The position numbers and the translations under genes were made by a program. From positions 1-27,689 of IMG/VR virus record IMGVR_UViG_3300043331_000569: a DNA stretch of 27,689 nucleotides; one strand, 5' to 3'. This stretch comes from a virus. The notes beneath the pieces are model-generated. The model saw only the letters and a list, made by a program, of their open reading frames with translations, was not told the DNA's origin and ran no database searches. Shown here one piece after another: positions 19,317 to 27,651 of the stretch; the stretch's first letter is position 1; each line of letters opens with the position of its first letter.

Positions 19317-19892
19317 ATGGATTCTCTCGTAATAGACTTTAGTTCGCCAGAAATTCCCTGGTGGATGGTTTCTAGCCTTCGGAACCGATTTCGCTTGGAA
19401 AACTTCATAGAAACCGGAACTGGTTACGGGTTGACTGCAGTAGTGGCTGCAAAACTGTTCAAACGAGTATACACAATAGAGTTACTGCCGGAAGTTTACG
19501 AACAACAGGTTGGAGAGTTGTTGACAATGAAAAATGTTGAACGACTCTGTGGAGATAGTCGAGATTTATTGAAAGACATTGTAAATAGACTTGACAGTCC
19601 TTCGATGTTCTATCTTGATGCTCACTACAATGGAATGGGTGAAAGACGCTCGGATATAGAATGTCCCTTGTTAGATGAACTAGAGATTATCTTTGGGAAA
19701 CCCATGAGAACGAACTGTATTGTAATTGACAACGTAGGAATGTTTGTCCATCCCCATCCTCCCCACCGCCCGGAGGAGTGGCCCAAGATTGGAGAAATTG
19801 GAGAGTTGATCCGTAGTAGATGCCATTCTTCAATCCAGATTTTTTGTGACGTGATGTTAATTACTCCAGTACCTATTTTCACGACTTTATAA
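19317..19892 (+). CDS. SAM-dependent methyltransferase-like protein
   Basis: A 191-aa protein with NFIETGTGYGLTAVVAAKLF (residues 29-48) as a glycine-rich SAM motif I, VYTIELLPEVYEQQ as the acidic post-I strand, LCGDSRDLL, and MFYLDAHYNGMGER (residues 97-110) with ECPLLDELEIIF. The run ETGT ... YTIEL ... LDAHY ... ECPLLDEL is the signature of a class I methyltransferase-like family that recurs beside glycosyltransferases. It sits between a GT2 and a fucosyltransferase, so a sugar is the likely target. The stop overlaps the next ATG as TAATG. Confidence 0.7.
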   Translation: MDSLVIDFSSPEIPWWMVSSLRNRFRLENFIETGTGYGLTAVVAAKLFKRVYTIELLPEVYEQQVGELLTMKNVERLCGDSRDLLKDIVNRLDSPSMFYLDAHYNGMGERRSDIECPLLDELEIIFGKPMRTNCIVIDNVGMFVHPHPPHRPEEWPKIGEIGELIRSRCHSSIQIFCDVMLITPVPIFTTL

Positions 19893-20716
19893 TGATAACT
19901 TTTAGTCGTCTTGGCAGGTACGGTCAATTGGGCAATCAATTATTTCAGGTTTCCCTCCTTCTTGGGGTAGCTGCTAAAACGGGGTATGAAGTTGCAATTC
20001 CCAAAAGATTTAGAGGACATAAGAAAAGAGGCCTGGTTGAGTTGGAGCCGTTTGAGATCAAAATTACTGCTCTGCCAATGAGAGTTTCTGGCAGTCGATT
20101 TAGAATTTATCGGGAAAATGGATTTCCATTCAACCCACAAGTGTTCACACAGCCAGATTGGACCGATTATCAGGGCTATTTCCAGACGGAGAAGTATTTT
20201 GTTCACATCGAGGAAAAAATACGAGAGCAATTTCGTTTCAAGTCAAACATTGTAGATTATGCTTCTCAGTTTGTGTATAAGGAACGCGAAACAGAGAACG
20301 TAGTAGCTATTCATGTACGACGGGGCGACTATTTGGACAAACCAGATTTGTTTCACGTTTTGACCCCGGACTATTATAATTGGGCCGTTCATCATCCAAA
20401 ACTACCTCCCAATAGACAATTCATGGTTTTCTCAGATGATATTCCTTGGTGTACCGAGAATCTGAATCTAACTAGTGATAAAACTACATTTGTTACTTCT
20501 CCTTCCCACTGGCACGACTTAGCCATTATGACTTTTTGTGACCATCATATCATCGCAGCTAGTTCATTTTCTTGGTGGGCTGCATGGCTTTCCCACAATC
20601 GCAAAAATGTAGTGATCGCACCTAATCCCTGGTTCCCCACAACCAATCAAAGGGGATGGGATGATAGAGATATAGTTCCCGAACGATGGGAAAAGCTCAA
20701 CGTCTATGGGAACTAA
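19892..20716 (+). CDS. Alpha-1,2-fucosyltransferase (GT11)
   Basis: A 274-aa protein with the complete GT11 motif set: GRYGQLGNQLFQV (residues 8-20), VAIHVRRGDYLDK (138-150, the GDP-fucose-binding HxRRGDY), FMVFSDDIPWC (178-187) and IAASSFSWWAAWL (221-233). Length and order match bacterial alpha-1,2-fucosyltransferases (WbsJ/FutC type). The enzyme would add L-fucose from GDP-fucose in alpha-1,2 linkage, usually as a terminal cap of a surface glycan. No GDP-fucose synthesis genes are visible, so the donor must come from the host or from outside this window. Confidence 0.92.
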   Translation: MITFSRLGRYGQLGNQLFQVSLLLGVAAKTGYEVAIPKRFRGHKKRGLVELEPFEIKITALPMRVSGSRFRIYRENGFPFNPQVFTQPDWTDYQGYFQTEKYFVHIEEKIREQFRFKSNIVDYASQFVYKERETENVVAIHVRRGDYLDKPDLFHVLTPDYYNWAVHHPKLPPNRQFMVFSDDIPWCTENLNLTSDKTTFVTSPSHWHDLAIMTFCDHHIIAASSFSWWAAWLSHNRKNVVIAPNPWFPTTNQRGWDDRDIVPERWEKLNVYGN

Positions 20717-20718
20717 CA

Positions 20719-20919
20719 ATGGATATTCTTATCCAAAAACAGATCAAGTTTCACTCAGAGAAAATAACTCACCTTGAAAAAGAATTAGAGGCGAGAACGT
20801 CTGCGGGAACGAAACGGATCAATAAAGCAGAAGCCGAATTGCGGTTGGAACTAGATAGAATACGTGAACAAATCCGAGGCCATAAAGAAAAGATTGAAGA
20901 CCTCAAGCGATCAGCCTAA
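20719..20919 (+). CDS. Small coiled-coil protein
   Basis: About 66 aa from ATG 20719, supported by GGGAA 6 nt upstream; an ATG at 20686 would overlap the fucosyltransferase gene by 31 bp. The whole product is one charged amphipathic helix (KITHLEKELEARTSAG, EAELRLELDRIREQIRGHKE). No function is recognised; it could be a small assembly or lysis-timing accessory. It is the last + strand gene, and its end overlaps the end of the convergent ATPase gene by 9 bp, with no terminator hairpin between the two operons. Confidence 0.55.
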   Translation: MDILIQKQIKFHSEKITHLEKELEARTSAGTKRINKAEAELRLELDRIREQIRGHKEKIEDLKRSA

Positions 20920-21543
20920 CCTGATGATCTTCCCATGTCCTAGATTTTCACAATCTTGAATATGAGTCACCACAAGGAATTGAATGTTAAGTTCGATTGC
21001 AAGTTGCCGGATAAGGTCGAGCACCACCGGACGTAAATCTGGGTGAATGTGCCGGGCAGGCTCATCGAGAATTACCAATCTTCTCAGCTTGGGTACTGAG
21101 CTAACAATACAAGCCACTCGCAAAGCCAAGGAGGCTACATCTACTACTCCCCCACCTGCGGCATCCAATGGGTCGATAATCTGACCATTCCGACAGAATA
21201 CCAACTGAGCCTCGGTCTTATTCCTTTTCTTGGTGAATCGAATTTCAAAGTCGTAGGTATTCTCTCCAAACACTGTTTTTAGTGCTCTGGTCACGACGCT
21301 AGCTATCTGACGATGGACTCGATTTTGAATCTCTGCTGCTGCGGTCTGGACTATCTTCTGGGCCTCTTCCAACGCGGCAACCTCTTTTTGCAATCTCTGC
21401 CTATTTTGTCTCTCTGTTTTGTACTGCTGAACCGCAGCCTGGTAATTAGTCAGATGCTTGAGAATTGTGTTTTTCCAATTGCTCAAGGTAGATGTTATAC
21501 TCTCGCTGGAACCGGGCGAATTCCTTGTTGAACTTGCGATCAT
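20911..21543 (-). CDS. SbcC/Rad50-like ATPase, C-terminal half
   Basis: A 210-aa protein from an ATG with AAGGA 6 nt upstream. Residues about 20-85 are coiled coil (YQAAVQQYKTERQNRQRLQK). Then come the ABC-ATPase C-lobe motifs: a signature-like AAGGGVVDVASLALRVA (128-143), Walker B RRLVILDEPARH with catalytic Glu (154-165, D160, E161), D-loop HPDLRP, and the H-loop FLVVTHIQ (189-196). There is no Walker A in this protein; it lies in the gene at 23510-24523. The two must pair to make one active ATP site, as in Rad50 or T4 gp46. The first 98 bp overlap the coiled-coil gene in another frame. Role: DNA end processing with the SbcD-like nuclease. Confidence 0.8.
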   Translation of the reverse strand: MIASSTRNSPGSSESITSTLSNWKNTILKHLTNYQAAVQQYKTERQNRQRLQKEVAALEEAQKIVQTAAAEIQNRVHRQIASVVTRALKTVFGENTYDFEIRFTKKRNKTEAQLVFCRNGQIIDPLDAAGGGVVDVASLALRVACIVSSVPKLRRLVILDEPARHIHPDLRPVVLDLIRQLAIELNIQFLVVTHIQDCENLGHGKIIRLG

Positions 21544-21724
21544 TTTCTTCCTTCTCTTTTTTCAGTTTGGCTATTAGCTTTTTGGCTGCTTGAATCGAGT
21601 TGCAATTAAATTCCTCTTTGAGAGTTTTGAGTAGCTGTTCTCTGGCTCCTCGTTTTTGTTCTCGTTCTCGTTCCAACCTCTCAATTCTTTTTTTCAGCTT
21701 GAGGTATTCTACCTCATTTATCAT
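21446..21724 (-). CDS. Coiled-coil protein beside the ATPase C-half
   Basis: A 92-aa protein preceded by AAAGGAGG, 6 nt before the ATG, which overlaps the upstream stop (ATGA). The sequence is almost all heptad-like and charged (KLKKRIERLEREREQKRG; LIAKLKKEKEENDRKFNKEF). It may supply part of the coiled-coil arm missing from the split ATPase, because the C-half has only a short coil, but this is inferred. The frame of the next gene is offset by +1 relative to this one, so a -1 frameshift cannot join them; an independent start is more likely. Confidence 0.6.
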   Translation of the reverse strand: MINEVEYLKLKKRIERLEREREQKRGAREQLLKTLKEEFNCNSIQAAKKLIAKLKKEKEENDRKFNKEFARFQREYNIYLEQLEKHNSQASD

Positions 21725-21909
21725 CGCTTCCTCCTTTCTTGTTTTGGAGGAATAGCCTCTCCGGCAGCTTCAAGAAATTTCCAGGTCATTCTCCTATTGC
21801 ACACCAATCCTTTGAAGTATCTGTAATGGAGTTCACATTGTCCCCTGTGTTGGGCAGGGCGAGTGCATTGTTTTCCCTCTGTCTTCACCAGGCATCTATC
21901 CTTTTGCAT
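21721..21909 (-). CDS. Small zinc-binding-like protein
   Basis: About 62 aa from the ATG at 21909 (a TTG at 21924 would add five residues; GAGAAG lies upstream of the ATG). It has a Cys/His set DRCLVKTEGKQCTRPAQ then RGQCELHYRYF, that is C-x8-C-x9-C-x2-H, a pattern I know from small phage proteins described as zinc-ribbon-like. The end is basic (PPKQERRKR). It overlaps the SbcD-like gene by 14 bp and the coiled-coil gene by 4 bp, so it is part of the same translated unit. Function unknown. Confidence 0.55.
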   Translation of the reverse strand: MQKDRCLVKTEGKQCTRPAQHRGQCELHYRYFKGLVCNRRMTWKFLEAAGEAIPPKQERRKR

Positions 21910-22846
21910 TTCTAGTCTTCTCAATAATTTCTAGTAAAGCCTTTTTAACATCTGATTTCACCTTGGGATCGTCTAGGTGTTTTTCCAATAGTTCCAAAAA
22001 GTCAATAGTGTCCGTACTTAGTTTCTTAAATCCCTCAATCAGTTCTCTTAGATCGGCTTTTTTGGAATTGAATTTTATTTTATCCTCAGCCAGCCATTTA
22101 TCTTTGCTGGTGTCCAGATAGAGTCGTTGGATGGAACCGTCATCGTGTAGGATTCCAACACTCGGCTTGTAGTTACGCTGGTCTGAGTTGCGGTTGATAA
22201 TTGATCCACAATTAAAAACTGTGACTCCATCGTGTTCCGTCTGAAAGGCTAGATGATTGTCGCCCGTAACGACGTGGGTATATCTGTAGTGCTTGGCGAG
22301 TTTTAGCAGAGAAGTAACATGAGCCGATCTCGGAGCATTCGGAAAACTGGAACTGGCGGTCCAAACATACTGGTGGAGCACGGCAACTTTAATTTGGTCT
22401 TTTTGGTAGGGCAATAACTTTATCGGAGAGAGTTTCGATCCGAAAGGAAATCCTACCACAATAAATTTTGTTCCTAATCCTTCAATGGGAAACGGCTTTC
22501 CGGTGGGTAAGTCCCACAGGGTGTTAGCTTCTACCAAAGTTTGATAGACACTACGGTGTAGATTGTCGGATGAGTGAAATGGCAGATCATGTTGGCCGGT
22601 AACTGAATATGTTTTACTAGGGATGTGGGAAATTGCCCAGTTGATGAGTTCGGCACACTCGTTCCAATGATGTAGGACATCTCCTGCTTGTAGGATGGGG
22701 ATTTCACGAAGTTTACTTTGAAGTTCTTTAATTTGATCTAACTGACGCTGTTGTGCCTTCAACCAATCTGGTTCCGCTGATCTGGCAATCGGGGGTTTGA
22801 GGGACAAATGCCAATCGGCAGTTAATAAGCAAATTGGTTTTCTCAT
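21896..22846 (-). CDS. SbcD/Mre11-like metallophosphoesterase nuclease
   Basis: A 316-aa protein with all calcineurin-type motifs in order: LLTADWHLSL (D11, H13), LQAGDVLHHWNE (D56, H59), VTGQHDLPFH (residues 83-91), VAVLHQYVW (H158) and VVTGDNHLAF (192-201, D196, H198). The core length fits phage SbcD/gp47 proteins; residues about 240-316 form a charged helical tail. It should cut DNA ends in a complex with the Rad50-like ATPase whose two halves are encoded on either side. The third motif has Gln where most members have Asn (GNHD). The ATG is 2 nt after the upstream stop. Confidence 0.85.
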   Translation of the reverse strand: MRKPICLLTADWHLSLKPPIARSAEPDWLKAQQRQLDQIKELQSKLREIPILQAGDVLHHWNECAELINWAISHIPSKTYSVTGQHDLPFHSSDNLHRSVYQTLVEANTLWDLPTGKPFPIEGLGTKFIVVGFPFGSKLSPIKLLPYQKDQIKVAVLHQYVWTASSSFPNAPRSAHVTSLLKLAKHYRYTHVVTGDNHLAFQTEHDGVTVFNCGSIINRNSDQRNYKPSVGILHDDGSIQRLYLDTSKDKWLAEDKIKFNSKKADLRELIEGFKKLSTDTIDFLELLEKHLDDPKVKSDVKKALLEIIEKTRNAKG

Positions 22847-22848
22847 GG

Positions 22849-23046
22849 TTAATCCGTAGGTCCGAGGTCAAGCATTCGAGTAGCGTCAGCTAAGTCGGGT
22901 GGGGTTTCTTCTTCCGGTCCCAATTCTTTTCCAATCAACTGTTCTACCAACTGGGCCGGGGTCAACCTTCGTTTGGCAGCTTCCCGGCGAAGCCGGAGAA
23001 AGACCCTTTTATCAACGTAAACTACTGATTTATTTTTACTCGGCAC
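22849..23046 (-). CDS. Small ribbon-helix-helix-like protein
   Basis: A 65-aa protein starting at GTG 23046, overlapping the upstream gene by 11 bp. KSVVYVDKRVFLRLRREAAK followed by RLTPAQLVEQLIGKELG matches a strand-helix-helix plan like CopG/Arc repressors, in which the strand contacts DNA. The C-terminal 20 residues are acidic and proline-rich. A small DNA-binding regulator is possible; similarity is by pattern only. Confidence 0.45.
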   Translation of the reverse strand: MPSKNKSVVYVDKRVFLRLRREAAKRRLTPAQLVEQLIGKELGPEEETPPDLADATRMLDLGPTD

Positions 23047-23275
23047 TGTTTTTGTTCGATTTCCAGGTTAGAGGGGCGGGATACTTCTTGGTTATATATA
23101 CTAATTGATCTCCTTGGATTATTGGGTTTCCTCGACTATCTGACTCGACATAAGTTACTTCTCCGGTCTTTGTATTAAACTCAATAATTCTTTCCTCGAT
23201 TTCGTTTCCATTACGGTCATAGACCCGGAGAGGGATAAGACCGAGTGCTTCGGCGGTATCAACATTCAGTTTCAT
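23036..23275 (-). CDS. Unknown small protein
   Basis: A 79-aa protein whose ATG overlaps the previous stop (ATGA). It reads as a small beta protein: LGLIPLRVYDRNGNEIEERI, IIEFNTKTGEVTYVESD, then GDQLVYITKKYPAPL. I do not recognise a family. Packed between another small unknown protein and the RHH-like gene. Confidence 0.5.
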   Translation of the reverse strand: MKLNVDTAEALGLIPLRVYDRNGNEIEERIIEFNTKTGEVTYVESDSRGNPIIQGDQLVYITKKYPAPLTWKSNKNSAE

Positions 23276-23496
23276 TCCACACCCCCCAACTCTATATAAG
23301 TTGCTTCCTTTACTTTATTTAAGATGGGATAAGGGTATCCATCCGAGTCAATAGCCAACCATCCATCAGAGCAAGTTAACGTTCCTTCTCTAGTTTCCAC
23401 AGTAAAAGGTCCATCCATACGGATCATTAAGGTAGCTTGTTTCTTCATGCAACGAATCCATTGTCCGAATGGCAAATTTCCTTTTTTGTATATCAT
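23272..23496 (-). CDS. Unknown small protein
   Basis: A 74-aa protein with a strong AGGAGG (23506-23511), 9 nt before the ATG. The core GPFTVETREGTLTC followed by SDGWLAIDSDGYPYPI is a beta-rich pattern I have seen in small phage proteins of unknown role. It begins 13 nt after the stop of the ATPase N-half. No function can be assigned. Confidence 0.55.
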   Translation of the reverse strand: MIYKKGNLPFGQWIRCMKKQATLMIRMDGPFTVETREGTLTCSDGWLAIDSDGYPYPILNKVKEATYIELGGVE

Positions 23497-23509
23497 CTCT
23501 TTGTACCTC

Positions 23510-24523
23510 CTATACCGGGGATTTGTTAGTTAGAACTCCACCACAACTCGGGCATCTGCCACCCAACTGAGTCTCAAGACTTTGCCTTCTTCTCTCCAAC
23601 TCTGTACTGATCTGATTTACCTCTTTTCTCATGCTTCTCTCGGTTGAGATTAGGGCTTCGAGGGTGGAGGTTTGTTGGGATTGTTGTTTGGTTGTGGGCC
23701 AATCGGGCAGAGAGGGGAGTGGGGTGAGATGTCGGTCTAGCTGCGACAATTTGTCGTACATGGTTTGGAGCCGTGCTAGCTGGTTGGTCGAATCATGGGC
23801 TTGACCCCCGTGCTGGTATGCCGTGTGCGCAACGCTAATGGCCCGCCCAAGCGACGGAAGCTGCTGGTCGTATTGCGAGACGGTCCCCACCGTGCCGGCG
23901 AGAGCTTCGACGGTTATAGCGGTTTCCACGATCTCTTTATTTATTTTGTCTATCTTCTCCAATTTAACATTCAGCCGTTTGATGGGATTCAACCGGGCTG
24001 CCGTCCCCCGTGCTGTCTCTAATCGCTTCTCCACCACCTCTAACTCAGCTTTTTTATTCCTTAATCTTTTGCTCACCTCTGCCTGTACCCGGTCAATTGC
24101 ATCCAGATCAACTACACGGTTTAATTCCTTAGCTGCCTCGCCCGGCGTGAGAGAGAACCAAAACAAAGGCTGATGTTGGGATTGAAAATTGATGAGTTCG
24201 AGATTGAGTAGTTTCTGGATGGCTGGGGGAACCTCGTGCTTGAAAGCCCAGAACCGTTTGCTGTCCAGTTTATAGAGGTTTGTTTTGCCGGCTTTCCTTG
24301 TTACTGTGTGCTCATCAATCTCAGCCGATACCATAGTCTGAGTGGAGCCGTGCCGAATGAAGGCTTTTCCGATGGGTCGGTTGAATGTCAGCCATTTGAA
24401 TCCACGGATGATTGCCGATTTGCCAGAGTCATTCGGTCCCACTAGAATCGTCAGGTAGCGATCTAGTTTGATCTTGATTAGTTTGTGGTTCTGGTAGTTT
24501 TTCAGAGTCAGAAGTTTTAGCAT
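23510..24523 (-). CDS. SbcC/Rad50-like ATPase, N-terminal half with zinc hook
   Basis: A 337-aa protein. Residues 1-10 (MLKLLTLKNY) and LVGPNDSGKSAIIRG (28-41, Walker A) open a Rad50/RecF-type ATPase N-lobe; ELINFQSQHQPLFWF is the Q-loop. From about residue 145 it is coiled coil, ending in LGGRCPSCGGVLTNKSPV, with a CxxC zinc hook (C324, C327) just 10 residues from the stop. A normal Rad50/SbcC continues from the hook into a second coil and the C-lobe; here that part is a separate gene (20911-21543). AGGAAG lies about 9 nt before the ATG. The first 95 bp overlap the upstream gene in another frame. Confidence 0.85.
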   Translation of the reverse strand: MLKLLTLKNYQNHKLIKIKLDRYLTILVGPNDSGKSAIIRGFKWLTFNRPIGKAFIRHGSTQTMVSAEIDEHTVTRKAGKTNLYKLDSKRFWAFKHEVPPAIQKLLNLELINFQSQHQPLFWFSLTPGEAAKELNRVVDLDAIDRVQAEVSKRLRNKKAELEVVEKRLETARGTAARLNPIKRLNVKLEKIDKINKEIVETAITVEALAGTVGTVSQYDQQLPSLGRAISVAHTAYQHGGQAHDSTNQLARLQTMYDKLSQLDRHLTPLPSLPDWPTTKQQSQQTSTLEALISTERSMRKEVNQISTELERRRQSLETQLGGRCPSCGGVLTNKSPV

Positions 24524-25058: not shown

Positions 25059-25742
25059 TTACGTTTTGTTTGTCCTAGCCATCTGCACCACATCAGAGCG
25101 ATGGACGGTGGAAAGAAAATTGTCTAGGGTAGTCGAGTAGATAGACATTAGTCTTCTGGCACTGACCTTTTTCTTGTATCGACGAATCTGTTTGGGAGTC
25201 ATTTTACGGCGTTGTTTGGGGGTGAGTGATGGGAATTGCTTGATCCGGGCCAAGATTCGGGCATGAGGTTTTAATTGGTGAAGTTGCTTTACTAAAGAAC
25301 GATCCATACTTAGCATCATGTGTCCCGGCATCAATATCAGTGGTTGTCGTCGGTCCCGGCGAACAATCAATAACCAACCCAATGAACCAGCTTGGCGATT
25401 GTGTTCACAGCACTCTCGAATCCACCCCTCAATTATACTTTCCCCATCCGGTTTCTCCAACGTATCCAGTAAATCTTGCAGTGATACTTTAGGGTAGCCA
25501 CGCTTCAATGATACCGTAAAACATCTGAGAAACCATCCTCCCCTCGATCCAGTTACTGCAATGTCTCCTACCTGGGACTTAAGTGCTTTCCCTTTTTTGG
25601 ACCGGACAGTTGCACGAGCGCCAGAAGAGTGTGTTCGGTAGAAAACGGCGTCATCTTTTCCGTCGGACCACCATAAAGACAAAGTGGCCGAAACTTCTCT
25701 TTCCCAACTCGCTCCTTTTTTACTACCTCCTCCGGGTTTCAT
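25059..25742 (-). CDS. PD-(D/E)XK nuclease-like protein (resolvase-like)
   Basis: A 227-aa protein with AAGGAG 5 nt before its ATG. Residues 8-50 (KKGASWEREVSATLSLWWSD; VFYRTHSSGARATVRSKKG) match the N-terminal helix and loop of phage PD-(D/E)XK proteins often called Holliday junction resolvase-like, and SQVGDIAV places the first catalytic acid at D60. The next motif, CFTVSLKRGYPKVSL, has Ser78 where the family has Glu (ExK to SxK, K80 kept); the codon is TCA. The C-terminal third is very basic (KQRRKMTPKQIRRYKKKV), suited to DNA binding. It may be an altered or inactive nuclease, or use another acidic residue. Confidence 0.6.
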   Translation of the reverse strand: MKPGGGSKKGASWEREVSATLSLWWSDGKDDAVFYRTHSSGARATVRSKKGKALKSQVGDIAVTGSRGGWFLRCFTVSLKRGYPKVSLQDLLDTLEKPDGESIIEGWIRECCEHNRQAGSLGWLLIVRRDRRQPLILMPGHMMLSMDRSLVKQLHQLKPHARILARIKQFPSLTPKQRRKMTPKQIRRYKKKVSARRLMSIYSTTLDNFLSTVHRSDVVQMARTNKT

Positions 25743-25930: not shown

Positions 25931-26204
25931 TGATTGGTGGCTCCAAAATAGGAAATGTTGGAGGTTTAGAGTCGTAAAGGTTTTTATTAGCCTCCAACTC
26001 TTTTAGTGCTTGTAGGCAATCAAACAGTCGTGGGGTGCCGTAGCTGCCGGCAAGTGGCTTGTTTGTACATCCTTGCAATATGTTGTATTTTCTTACTGCT
26101 TGGAGGTAATCAGTATATGATCTGTATTTGAAGGCATCGGGAGGGATAGGAGGATACTCTGTCTGCGGTTTCTTCCTTCTACATTTGGTCTTTTTGGGCT
26201 TCAT
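25911..26204 (-). CDS. Unknown small protein
   Basis: A 97-aa protein. The N-terminus is very basic (MKPKKTKCRRKK), then a Tyr/Pro segment (EYPPIPPDAFKYRSYTDYL) and a helix (RLFDCLQALKELEANKN). The ATG overlaps the exonuclease stop (ATGA), with GGGAG 9 nt upstream. No family recognised. Confidence 0.5.
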   Translation of the reverse strand: MKPKKTKCRRKKPQTEYPPIPPDAFKYRSYTDYLQAVRKYNILQGCTNKPLAGSYGTPRLFDCLQALKELEANKNLYDSKPPTFPILEPPINDPRPS

Positions 26205-27055
26205 TTTGGAAACTCCCTATATTCAATATCAGTTTCTAACGTCCTAATTCCAAGCTCCCTCAACACTCGTCCCCACTGCAAATCTCCATCCGGTTTGATT
26301 TTGATAGGTTTCAACCCATCAAACGGTAATCTGACCAATGGTAGATTTCGCCTTTTGATTGCAATTCCTTCTTGAGACAAAATTTTATGGTATTTTTTTG
26401 ACCCCTCGCTCAGTGTGAGGTTTATAAACTTGATGGCTGTCTTTTCTCCAATTCCTGGGATTCCTTTAACTCCGTCTGTGGGGCACCCAGATAGTGCTTT
26501 TACTACCGCCCAGTCCCAAGGATCAATTTCGTAGATTTTGCGGAACCTCTGTAATGTCCATAGAAATTTCTTCCTCGGATCATATAATTTTACCTGGGTG
26601 CCGAGACATTGTAATAAATCCGAATCAGTGGAAATGATTATGGCCCGTTCGTTCTCCTGAAGGTTTTGACAAATGTGAGCGATCAAATCATCTGCCTCAT
26701 AGCCCGGTACACGAAAGATGTTCTGAAAACCAACCAATTGTAAGTATTTGGTTCGTAGCCCTTTGATCTGCTGCCGTAAATCCCATAGAGCAGCAATTTG
26801 GTTTTGAGTAAGATTTTGATGAGTGTGACGACGTTTCTTATAGTCTGGATAGAGTCGTTTGCGTTTTGATTGTTTACTATCAAAGCAGAATACGTTGGTA
26901 GCCGGACCAAATTGCCCCTCTAGTTGGAGAACAGTACCAAAAAATCCGAATAGGACTCCAGTGGGAGTGTTGTTATAACTCAACCCTCCTGTAGAGTAAA
27001 AAGCCCTCCAACAGAGTGAGTGGGTGTCGTGTAAAATAAACTGTTTCAATTTCAT
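26201..27055 (-). CDS. 5'-3' exonuclease, T5 D15/FEN type
   Basis: About 284 aa from the ATG at 27055, which overlaps the stop of the HNH gene as ATGA; an ATG at 27070 would add five residues. FEN-family metal-binding and DNA-binding motifs are in order: FILHDTHSLCWRAFYS (D10), NVFCFDSKQSKRKR, VPGYEADDLIAHI (E120, D122, D123), IIISTDSDLLQCL (D144, D146), and the helix-3-turn-helix CPTDGVKGIPGIGEKTA (about 191-207). It would remove flaps and RNA primers and resect 5' ends during phage replication. Length fits phage exonucleases. Confidence 0.9.
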   Translation of the reverse strand: MKLKQFILHDTHSLCWRAFYSTGGLSYNNTPTGVLFGFFGTVLQLEGQFGPATNVFCFDSKQSKRKRLYPDYKKRRHTHQNLTQNQIAALWDLRQQIKGLRTKYLQLVGFQNIFRVPGYEADDLIAHICQNLQENERAIIISTDSDLLQCLGTQVKLYDPRKKFLWTLQRFRKIYEIDPWDWAVVKALSGCPTDGVKGIPGIGEKTAIKFINLTLSEGSKKYHKILSQEGIAIKRRNLPLVRLPFDGLKPIKIKPDGDLQWGRVLRELGIRTLETDIEYREFPK

Positions 27056-27651
27056 ACTACGTGGGTCCATACCTTGTTTCTAACTATGAGGGAAACTAAG
27101 TTTTGGGATACCCCAAATCTTCTTCCTAGTCGCATCTGAGTATATTTTCCGGCAGTATGCAAGGTTTTTATTTTTTTAACCTTTCCTTCTGTTAGCTTAT
27201 GATAGGCCCTTCTTCCGTTTTTGAGTGCATCTTTAGAATTTTGCTCTTGGGTTCCCCACCGAAGATTCTGCACACAGTTATTTGTTGAATTGTCGTCTAG
27301 GTGTCTTGTTTGCATCCCCATAGGACATGGACCAACAAATGCCCACAGAACAAGATGATGAACATAATACCTTCTTCCTGTTTGGCCTGGTTTTATCAGA
27401 CTTACACATAAGTGTCCTTTTCCTCGGCCACAATACGACGGTTTAAGTATTCTTGGTTGAACTACTCGATATCCTCTTCTATTTCTTACCCTCCTCCTAA
27501 CCGATTTAATTCTTCCATAGTTTGACACCCTGTAATGCCCAATAAAGGATTCTTTGTTTCCTTTGTAATAGATTATAACCCACTTCCAGATTTCTTTAGT
27601 AGTAGTTTTCAAATTGTGGGCATCAATCAGTATGAGATTACGTAGTTTCAT
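27052..27651 (-). CDS. HNH homing endonuclease (NUMOD4-HNH-HTH)
   Basis: A 199-aa protein. Residues 20-52 (EIWKWVIIYY; GHYRVSNYGRIKSVRR) are a NUMOD4 DNA-binding module. YVHHLVLWAFVGPCP (96-110) and TRHLDDNSTNNCVQNLRWG (115-133) form the HNH catalytic site with H98/H99 and the N-rich helix; QEQNSKDAL follows. Residues about 152-197 (KLTEGKVKKIKTLHTAGKY; FGVSQNLVSLIVRNKVW) are a helix-turn-helix. Unusually, the first 14 residues, MKLRNLILIDAHNL, do not belong to HNH enzymes but match the start of the adjacent exonuclease (MKLKQFILHDTHSL, 8 of 14 identical). The gene abuts the exonuclease (ATGA). It is a mobile gene inserted at or near the exonuclease start. Confidence 0.85.
   Translation of the reverse strand: MKLRNLILIDAHNLKTTTKEIWKWVIIYYKGNKESFIGHYRVSNYGRIKSVRRRVRNRRGYRVVQPRILKPSYCGRGKGHLCVSLIKPGQTGRRYYVHHLVLWAFVGPCPMGMQTRHLDDNSTNNCVQNLRWGTQEQNSKDALKNGRRAYHKLTEGKVKKIKTLHTAGKYTQMRLGRRFGVSQNLVSLIVRNKVWTHVV

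Follow-up and report, generated by a model that had tools for sequence, protein, structure and literature searches.

Rad50 ranks among the most conserved DNA-repair proteins. Its closest described forms keep both lobes of the ATP-binding cassette (ABC) head in one polypeptide: this holds for the single-chain Rad50 of E. coli SbcCD and of the archaeal and eukaryotic Mre11-Rad50 (MR) complexes as well as for gp46 of phage T4, a chain of 560 residues with a CPTC zinc hook and an SEGE signature that, according to the T4 record, acts together with gp47 in recombination and host-DNA degradation. In the crystals of the Pyrococcus furiosus Rad50 catalytic domain (1F2T/1F2U, 1II8, 3QKR) the head is present as the chains A and B, this division being reportedly a laboratory construct. 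The Mimivirus-type Mre11/Rad50 fusions represent an unusual viral architecture of the same complex (PMC3175470), in which Mre11 is joined to Rad50. The present analysis deals with the opposite change, i.e. a divided Rad50, found in the complete IMG/VR virus record IMGVR_UViG_3300043331_000569, the whole of which (27,689 bases) is referred to here as the window. The block in question very likely encodes a phage MR complex (of the SbcCD, T4 gp46/47 type), the Rad50 subunit of which is permanently in three chains—an N-half, a small coiled-coil protein (the coil protein) and a C-half.

The coordinates of all features are collected in Table 1. The N-half contains, besides Walker A, the Q-loop (Gln116) and long helices, and it stops shortly after its CPSC hook. 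The C-half, in which a Walker A was looked for and none is present, consists of a helix (residues 12-92) followed by the signature-like GGG, Walker B and the H-loop VVTH. All the elements expected of an ABC head—Walker A, Q-loop, Walker B and H-loop—are found, spread over two proteins. Between the two genes there are the gene for an SbcD-like nuclease and five small open reading frames (ORFs), the coil protein being one of them. The earlier note on this DNA, describing a Rad50/SbcC-like ATPase split right after its zinc hook, holds with regard to the ORFs, coordinates and motifs of both halves, the start of the C-half alone being refined: judged by conservation, it probably lies nearer the TTG at 21486 than the ATG at 21543, the overlap with the coil gene being then 41 instead of 98 nt.

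The split is not confined to the window. The viral contigs were scanned with alignments, since a single-sequence N-half search gave no match among them, the family being too diverged. The nuclease alignment yielded 27 loci, the C-half alignment the best 80 of 381 relatives and the N-half alignment the best 80 of 442, and all three recover one and the same four-gene block. The N-half of the first viral relative (L006) terminates ICPLCNK, and the genes of this relative already stand in the order N-half, nuclease, coil, C-half; among the loci from the nuclease scan, the N-half is upstream in 27 of 27, and the coil and C-half genes are downstream in most of those with enough sequence. Altogether, 167 of the 201 loci possess all four genes, 164 of them in exactly that order. 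It should be noted that the scans were seeded by short conserved stretches of the split family and a fused relative without those stretches would be missed; within this scope, no ORF matching both Rad50 lobes was found in the 201 loci. The non-redundant set, to which the counts given below refer unless stated otherwise, comprises 116 complete blocks at <70% identity, in all of which the four genes share a strand; the median block spans 3.1 kb. The same gene order, which the earlier note had proposed to seek in other genomes, is thus widespread. A sequencing frameshift or gene decay is ruled out as the origin of the split, which recurs in these 116 loci with genes between the halves. In the scan of bacterial and archaeal genomes, the block was found on eight contigs of metagenome-assembled genomes (MAGs), catalogued under Planctomycetaceae, Parcubacteria, Bacteroidetes, Smithella, Clostridia and Chloroflexi, five phyla at the least; they are possibly viral contigs that ended up in the bins.

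An intact Rad50-like gene elsewhere in the same genome, pointed out at the outset as the observation that would speak against a split enzyme, is absent from 21 contigs of 54-172 kb and from the isolate Bacillus phage vB_BboS-125, although these records may be incomplete. Each of the 22 has one AAA_23 match above the cut-off, corresponding to the N-half, and one C-half, the same being true for the record of the window; weak second AAA_23 matches were seen in five of the 22 longer records, all of them below the cut-off.

The assignment of the halves to Rad50 is based on both profiles and models. Within the same Pyrococcus Rad50 entries, the N-half profile matches chain A and the C-half profile chain B, Rad50 ranking first for both; as for the C-half, the profile from the smaller alignment (A5) gave the match, whereas that from the larger alignment (A10) had no PDB match at 1e-10. 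The AlphaFold2 (AF2) models, built from the window and viral sequences, are of good predicted quality (mean predicted local distance difference test score, pLDDT, in Table 1). The N-half is predicted as a lobe followed by three helices (140-177, 179-263 and 277-320), residues 264-276 forming a loose loop, and the C-half as the helix 12-92 running into the C-lobe. The former superimposes on chain A of 1f2u with a root-mean-square deviation (rmsd) of 2.5 over 123 aligned residues and the latter on chain B with an rmsd of 2.3 over 132 residues. Against the heads of SMC and RecF the N-half model alone scores equally high, and therefore the Rad50 identity follows from the paired A/B matches together with the hook and the nuclease partner. 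The two-chain Pyrococcus head is, by analogy, a direct precedent for a non-covalent assembly of the N- and C-lobes; it differs from the phage case, which has a natural split and comprises the hook. The multi-chain MR complex put forward in the earlier note is supported by all of this: the four genes co-occur in 116 loci, an intact Rad50 was not found, and the halves are predicted to fold as complementary lobes of one head.

With regard to the hook, a CxxC is present in 116 of 116 N-halves, mostly in the form CPxC, at a median distance of 6 residues from the stop (4-15 for the 5-95% range; maximum 37). Outside the N-halves the motif was found in none of the 116 coil proteins, in one C-half and in three nuclease ORFs; its invariable position at the end of the N-half, despite a cysteine frequency of 1.4%, and its near-absence from the other proteins of the block are beyond chance. 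The arm of the N-half differs in length among the members, falling into discrete classes of 139-150, 177-187, 190-198 and 224-298 residues. As a side observation, the lengths in this region (window 23543-24094) appear quantised in steps of about 40 residues without a counterpart change in the coil protein or the C-half, and the members with long N-arms contain repeated PDxxxL units.

The coil protein is 75-90 residues long in most members and has a homologue in 175 of the 178 loci with a C-half. The mean hydrophobicity of the family exhibits coiled-coil periodicity in both halves, to an extent that 2 and 0, respectively, of 2000 shuffles attain; the phase breaks at FGCKTLEEA. Its gene is no more than 30 nt from the C-half gene in 78 of the 116 loci and 30 nt to 3.9 kb apart in the remaining 38. 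The coil protein and the C-half together amount to 285 residues and the shortest class of N-halves to about 295. T4 gp46, for comparison, has 297 residues if counted to the sixth residue beyond its CPTC hook, and 263 from there on. Since these sizes are close to those of the gp46 halves, the coil protein is about as long as the upper portion of the descending arm that the C-half lacks, and it would rather probably form the apex-side half of that arm; without it, the C-side arm would have about 58 residues facing at least 139 on the N side.

In the complex proposed here, the N-half would supply Walker A, the Q-loop, the ascending arm and the CxxC half-hook, the small coiled-coil protein the upper descending arm, and the C-half the lower descending arm, the signature, Walker B and the H-loop. 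The N- and C-halves would pair non-covalently to give one ABC head, two such heads would dimerise on ATP, and one zinc would be shared between two N-half tips, with the adjacent SbcD-like chain acting as the nuclease. The whole complex would then most likely resect or trim DNA ends, serving UvsX-driven recombination and the replication of the phage's genome.

The nuclease fits such a partnership. Its family profile aligns to SbcD and Mre11, the motifs DxH, GD, GxHD and H as well as the last one coinciding, and every metal-ligand position of a metallophosphoesterase is filled. The third motif is GQHD in 90 of the 116 sequences, compared with GNHD in Mre11, and the fifth is GDNH in about 106, compared with GHxH (window 22250-22600 and homologues). 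In one relative (L171:7536-8992) the nuclease gene is seemingly interrupted, possibly by an inserted element: its two pieces, of 208 and 113 residues, are separated by about 490 bases.

Concerning the gene neighbourhood, the genes upstream of the 116 loci encode, within the available flanks, UvsX-like proteins (73), gp32-like single-stranded DNA-binding proteins (SSBs; 52), FEN-type exonucleases (51) and clamp loaders (25), and RuvC-like resolvases are present as well. Coding together with UvsX and gp32, which characterises the T4-type system, is therefore seen across the loci; in the window itself, a fragment, UvsX and a gp32-like SSB were not seen. Because the neighbours are UvsX, gp32-like SSB, FEN and PDDEXK genes, the role is likely, by analogy, that of T4 gp46/47, i.e. 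end resection for recombination-dependent replication. The two systems also share the same lobes, the CPxC-type hook, the SbcD partner, small genes between both and a nearly equal total size, and they differ in the number of chains and in the signature, which is GGGxxD in the split family. With E. coli SbcCD and the archaeal and eukaryotic MR complexes, the fold of both lobes, the hook, and the fold and motifs of the nuclease are held in common, whereas their Rad50 has longer arms and an SGGE/Q signature and their nuclease the GHxH motif.

Some observations weigh against the complex as proposed. The length of the N-arm has no positive correlation with the C side, which stays near 130 residues (rho -0.18), so that a simple picture of matched arms can hold for most members only if the surplus of the N-arm folds on itself; either the additional sequence is self-folded, or the coil protein has another job. 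Furthermore, in the C-half signature xxGGGxxD, aligned to the Rad50 LSGGE, glycine replaces the serine of the canonical ABC signature in 114 of 116 sequences, which, as read from the alignment, cautions against presuming normal ATP-driven dimerisation and activity: these cannot be taken for granted. The same applies to the nuclease activity in view of the GDNH motif.

The first of these points leads to the possibility—a minority one, but worth keeping in mind—that the N- and C-halves make the MR complex with the coil protein as a separate partner, e.g. an arm clamp or a DNA-binding accessory, rather than a part of the arm. The coil protein keeps a constant length while the N-arm varies by up to 160 residues, and the profile of its family has no significant match among solved structures; the very short C-side arm that would be left without it, the agreement with the post-hook part of gp46, and its almost constant company with the C-half, which it adjoins in most loci, argue for the arm. 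The suggestion of the earlier note that the 92-residue protein completes the arm therefore stands as far as the lengths in the shortest-arm class are concerned, but is not borne out by covariation of the N-arm with the coil protein.

The non-canonical signature and nuclease motifs could also be viewed differently. Host recombination nucleases are commonly inhibited by phages, and, as SbcCD attacks phage replication intermediates, the pieces might be decoys that insert into and poison the host SbcC/SbcD. This is very unlikely, however, given that the catalytic motifs are kept (Walker A in 115 of 116, the DE of Walker B across the set, and the Asp/His ligands of the nuclease in 116 of 116 apart from GDNH), that the cognate nuclease is present in every contig of sufficient length, that the block lies among UvsX, SSB, FEN and clamp-loader genes, and that a host-specific inhibitor would hardly suit carrier contigs filed under so many phyla. 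Finally, that the halves are joined later—by trans-splicing, a split intein or a coil/C-half frameshift—into a single-chain mature Rad50 is suggested by the coil and C-half ORFs overlapping in different frames here and in many relatives (median gap of the set -9.5 nt), but it is the most improbable explanation of all, since the Rfam search of the window revealed no RNA family, group I and II introns included, inspection of the N-half ends and C-half starts revealed no intein-like sequence, and the wide separation of coil and C-half genes in 38 of 116 loci rules out a frameshift fusion as a general rule.

Among 50,697 phage records, matches were found in three phages, two of them partial. Bacillus phage vB_BboS-125 possesses the same split in its gp32, gp34 and gp35 (phrog_16465, phrog_18563 and phrog_15167), gp32 ending with ICPLC plus 9 residues; it differs from the window in that the nuclease gene follows the C-half instead of preceding the coil gene. 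Their annotations do not go beyond exonuclease, hypothetical protein and ATPase. The module of this phage is completed by an unannotated SbcD-like ORF of 326 residues (L002:8238-9218; NC_048735.1 22423-23403; Metallophos 2.1e-10, phrog_100 3e-21). In Microbacterium phage Magritte (OR553905.1; L003:5001-6053, L004:284-934), there is a distant N-half that lacks CxxC, and the C-half lies about 39 kb off across the record ends, no coil gene having been found beside the C-half. The jumbo phage Tunturi_5 (PP885688.1, L005:5025-5690) has a C-half and no AAA_23 match in its whole 309-kb record.

A literature search for a split SbcC/Rad50, with subscription journals and preprints outside its reach, revealed no description, so that, while the halves are already in databases as separate, vaguely named families, their recognition as one divided Rad50 is apparently new. 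An apex-cut Rad50 that persists in 116 or more diverged phage lineages would demonstrate that Rad50 can do without a continuous polypeptide across the hook, and would offer ready-made small subunits for probing the communication between hook, arm and head, a long-standing question for the MR complexes. It also becomes possible to annotate, as one system, hundreds of phage genes whose present labels are exonuclease, ATPase or hypothetical. Only tentatively, the family may represent a widespread MR class with three separable Rad50 chains, arm opening or exchange at the hook, GGG-based ATP engagement and an altered set of nuclease metals; if true, such machines could have modes of DNA loading or of regulation that are closed to a single-chain Rad50.

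Table 1 Features of the divided Rad50 block and its neighbours in the window
Feature	Position	Strand	Support
N-half of Rad50/SbcC, 337 aa	23510..24523	-	PF13476 (AAA_23) E 2.3e-9; phrog_16465 2.6e-24; AF2 model, pLDDT 88.8; 1f2u_A Z 12.6; 9a9j_A Z 13.0
Walker A GPNDSGKS, N-half residues 29-36	24416..24439	-	sequence; G, GK kept in 115/116
Zinc-hook CPSC, N-half residues 324-327, stop 10 residues later	23543..23554	-	sequence; CxxC in 116/116 N-halves
Small ORF, 74 aa	23272..23496	-	no family match (Pfam, PHROGs)
Small ORF, 79 aa	23036..23275	-	no family match (Pfam, PHROGs)
Small ORF, 65 aa, GTG start	22849..23046	-	no family match (Pfam, PHROGs)
SbcD/Mre11-like nuclease, 316 aa	21896..22846	-	motifs TADWH, GDVLHH, GQHD, H158, GDNH; profile matches SbcD 7dog 2.5e-8, Mre11 1ii7 9.1e-8; Metallophos_2 3.3e-5, slightly below curated cut-off
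Small ORF, 67 aa, TTG start	21721..21924	-	no family match (Pfam, PHROGs)
Coiled-coil protein, 92 aa, proposed apex-side segment of descending arm	21446..21724	-	homologues in 175/178 C-half loci; heptad periodicity; alignment
C-half of Rad50/SbcC, 210 aa with start at ATG 21543, 191 aa with the more probable start at TTG 21486	20911..21543	-	phrog_15167 3.5e-25; AAA_15; family profile vs Rad50 chain B 3qkr_B 2.7e-15; AF2 model, pLDDT 91.3; 1f2u_B Z 12.1; 9a9j_B Z 12.7
Signature-like GGG, C-half residues 130-132, at Rad50 SGG position	21148..21156	-	alignment to Rad50; kept in 108-114/116
Walker B LVILDEP with catalytic Glu	21058..21081	-	sequence
FEN-type 5'-3' exonuclease, recurrent module neighbour	26201..27070	-	PF02739 1.5e-26; family in 51/116 loci
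PDDEXK endonuclease / RusA-like resolvase family, neighbour	25059..25742	-	PF24608 1.7e-9; phrog_244 1.9e-11

As far as the rest of the window is concerned, its plus strand carries head-tail connector and tape-measure genes. The gene at 19892-20716, which ends the structural gene cluster, resembles an alpha-1,2-fucosyltransferase (motifs GQLGNQLFQ and HVRRGDY, by reading only). A coiled-coil-like ORF of 77 residues on the plus strand (20686-20919), with a weak match to phrog_11350, is convergent with the C-half gene, the two overlapping by 9 nt, and an HNH endonuclease with NUMOD4 (27052-27651; PF13392 3.4e-11) adjoins the FEN gene.

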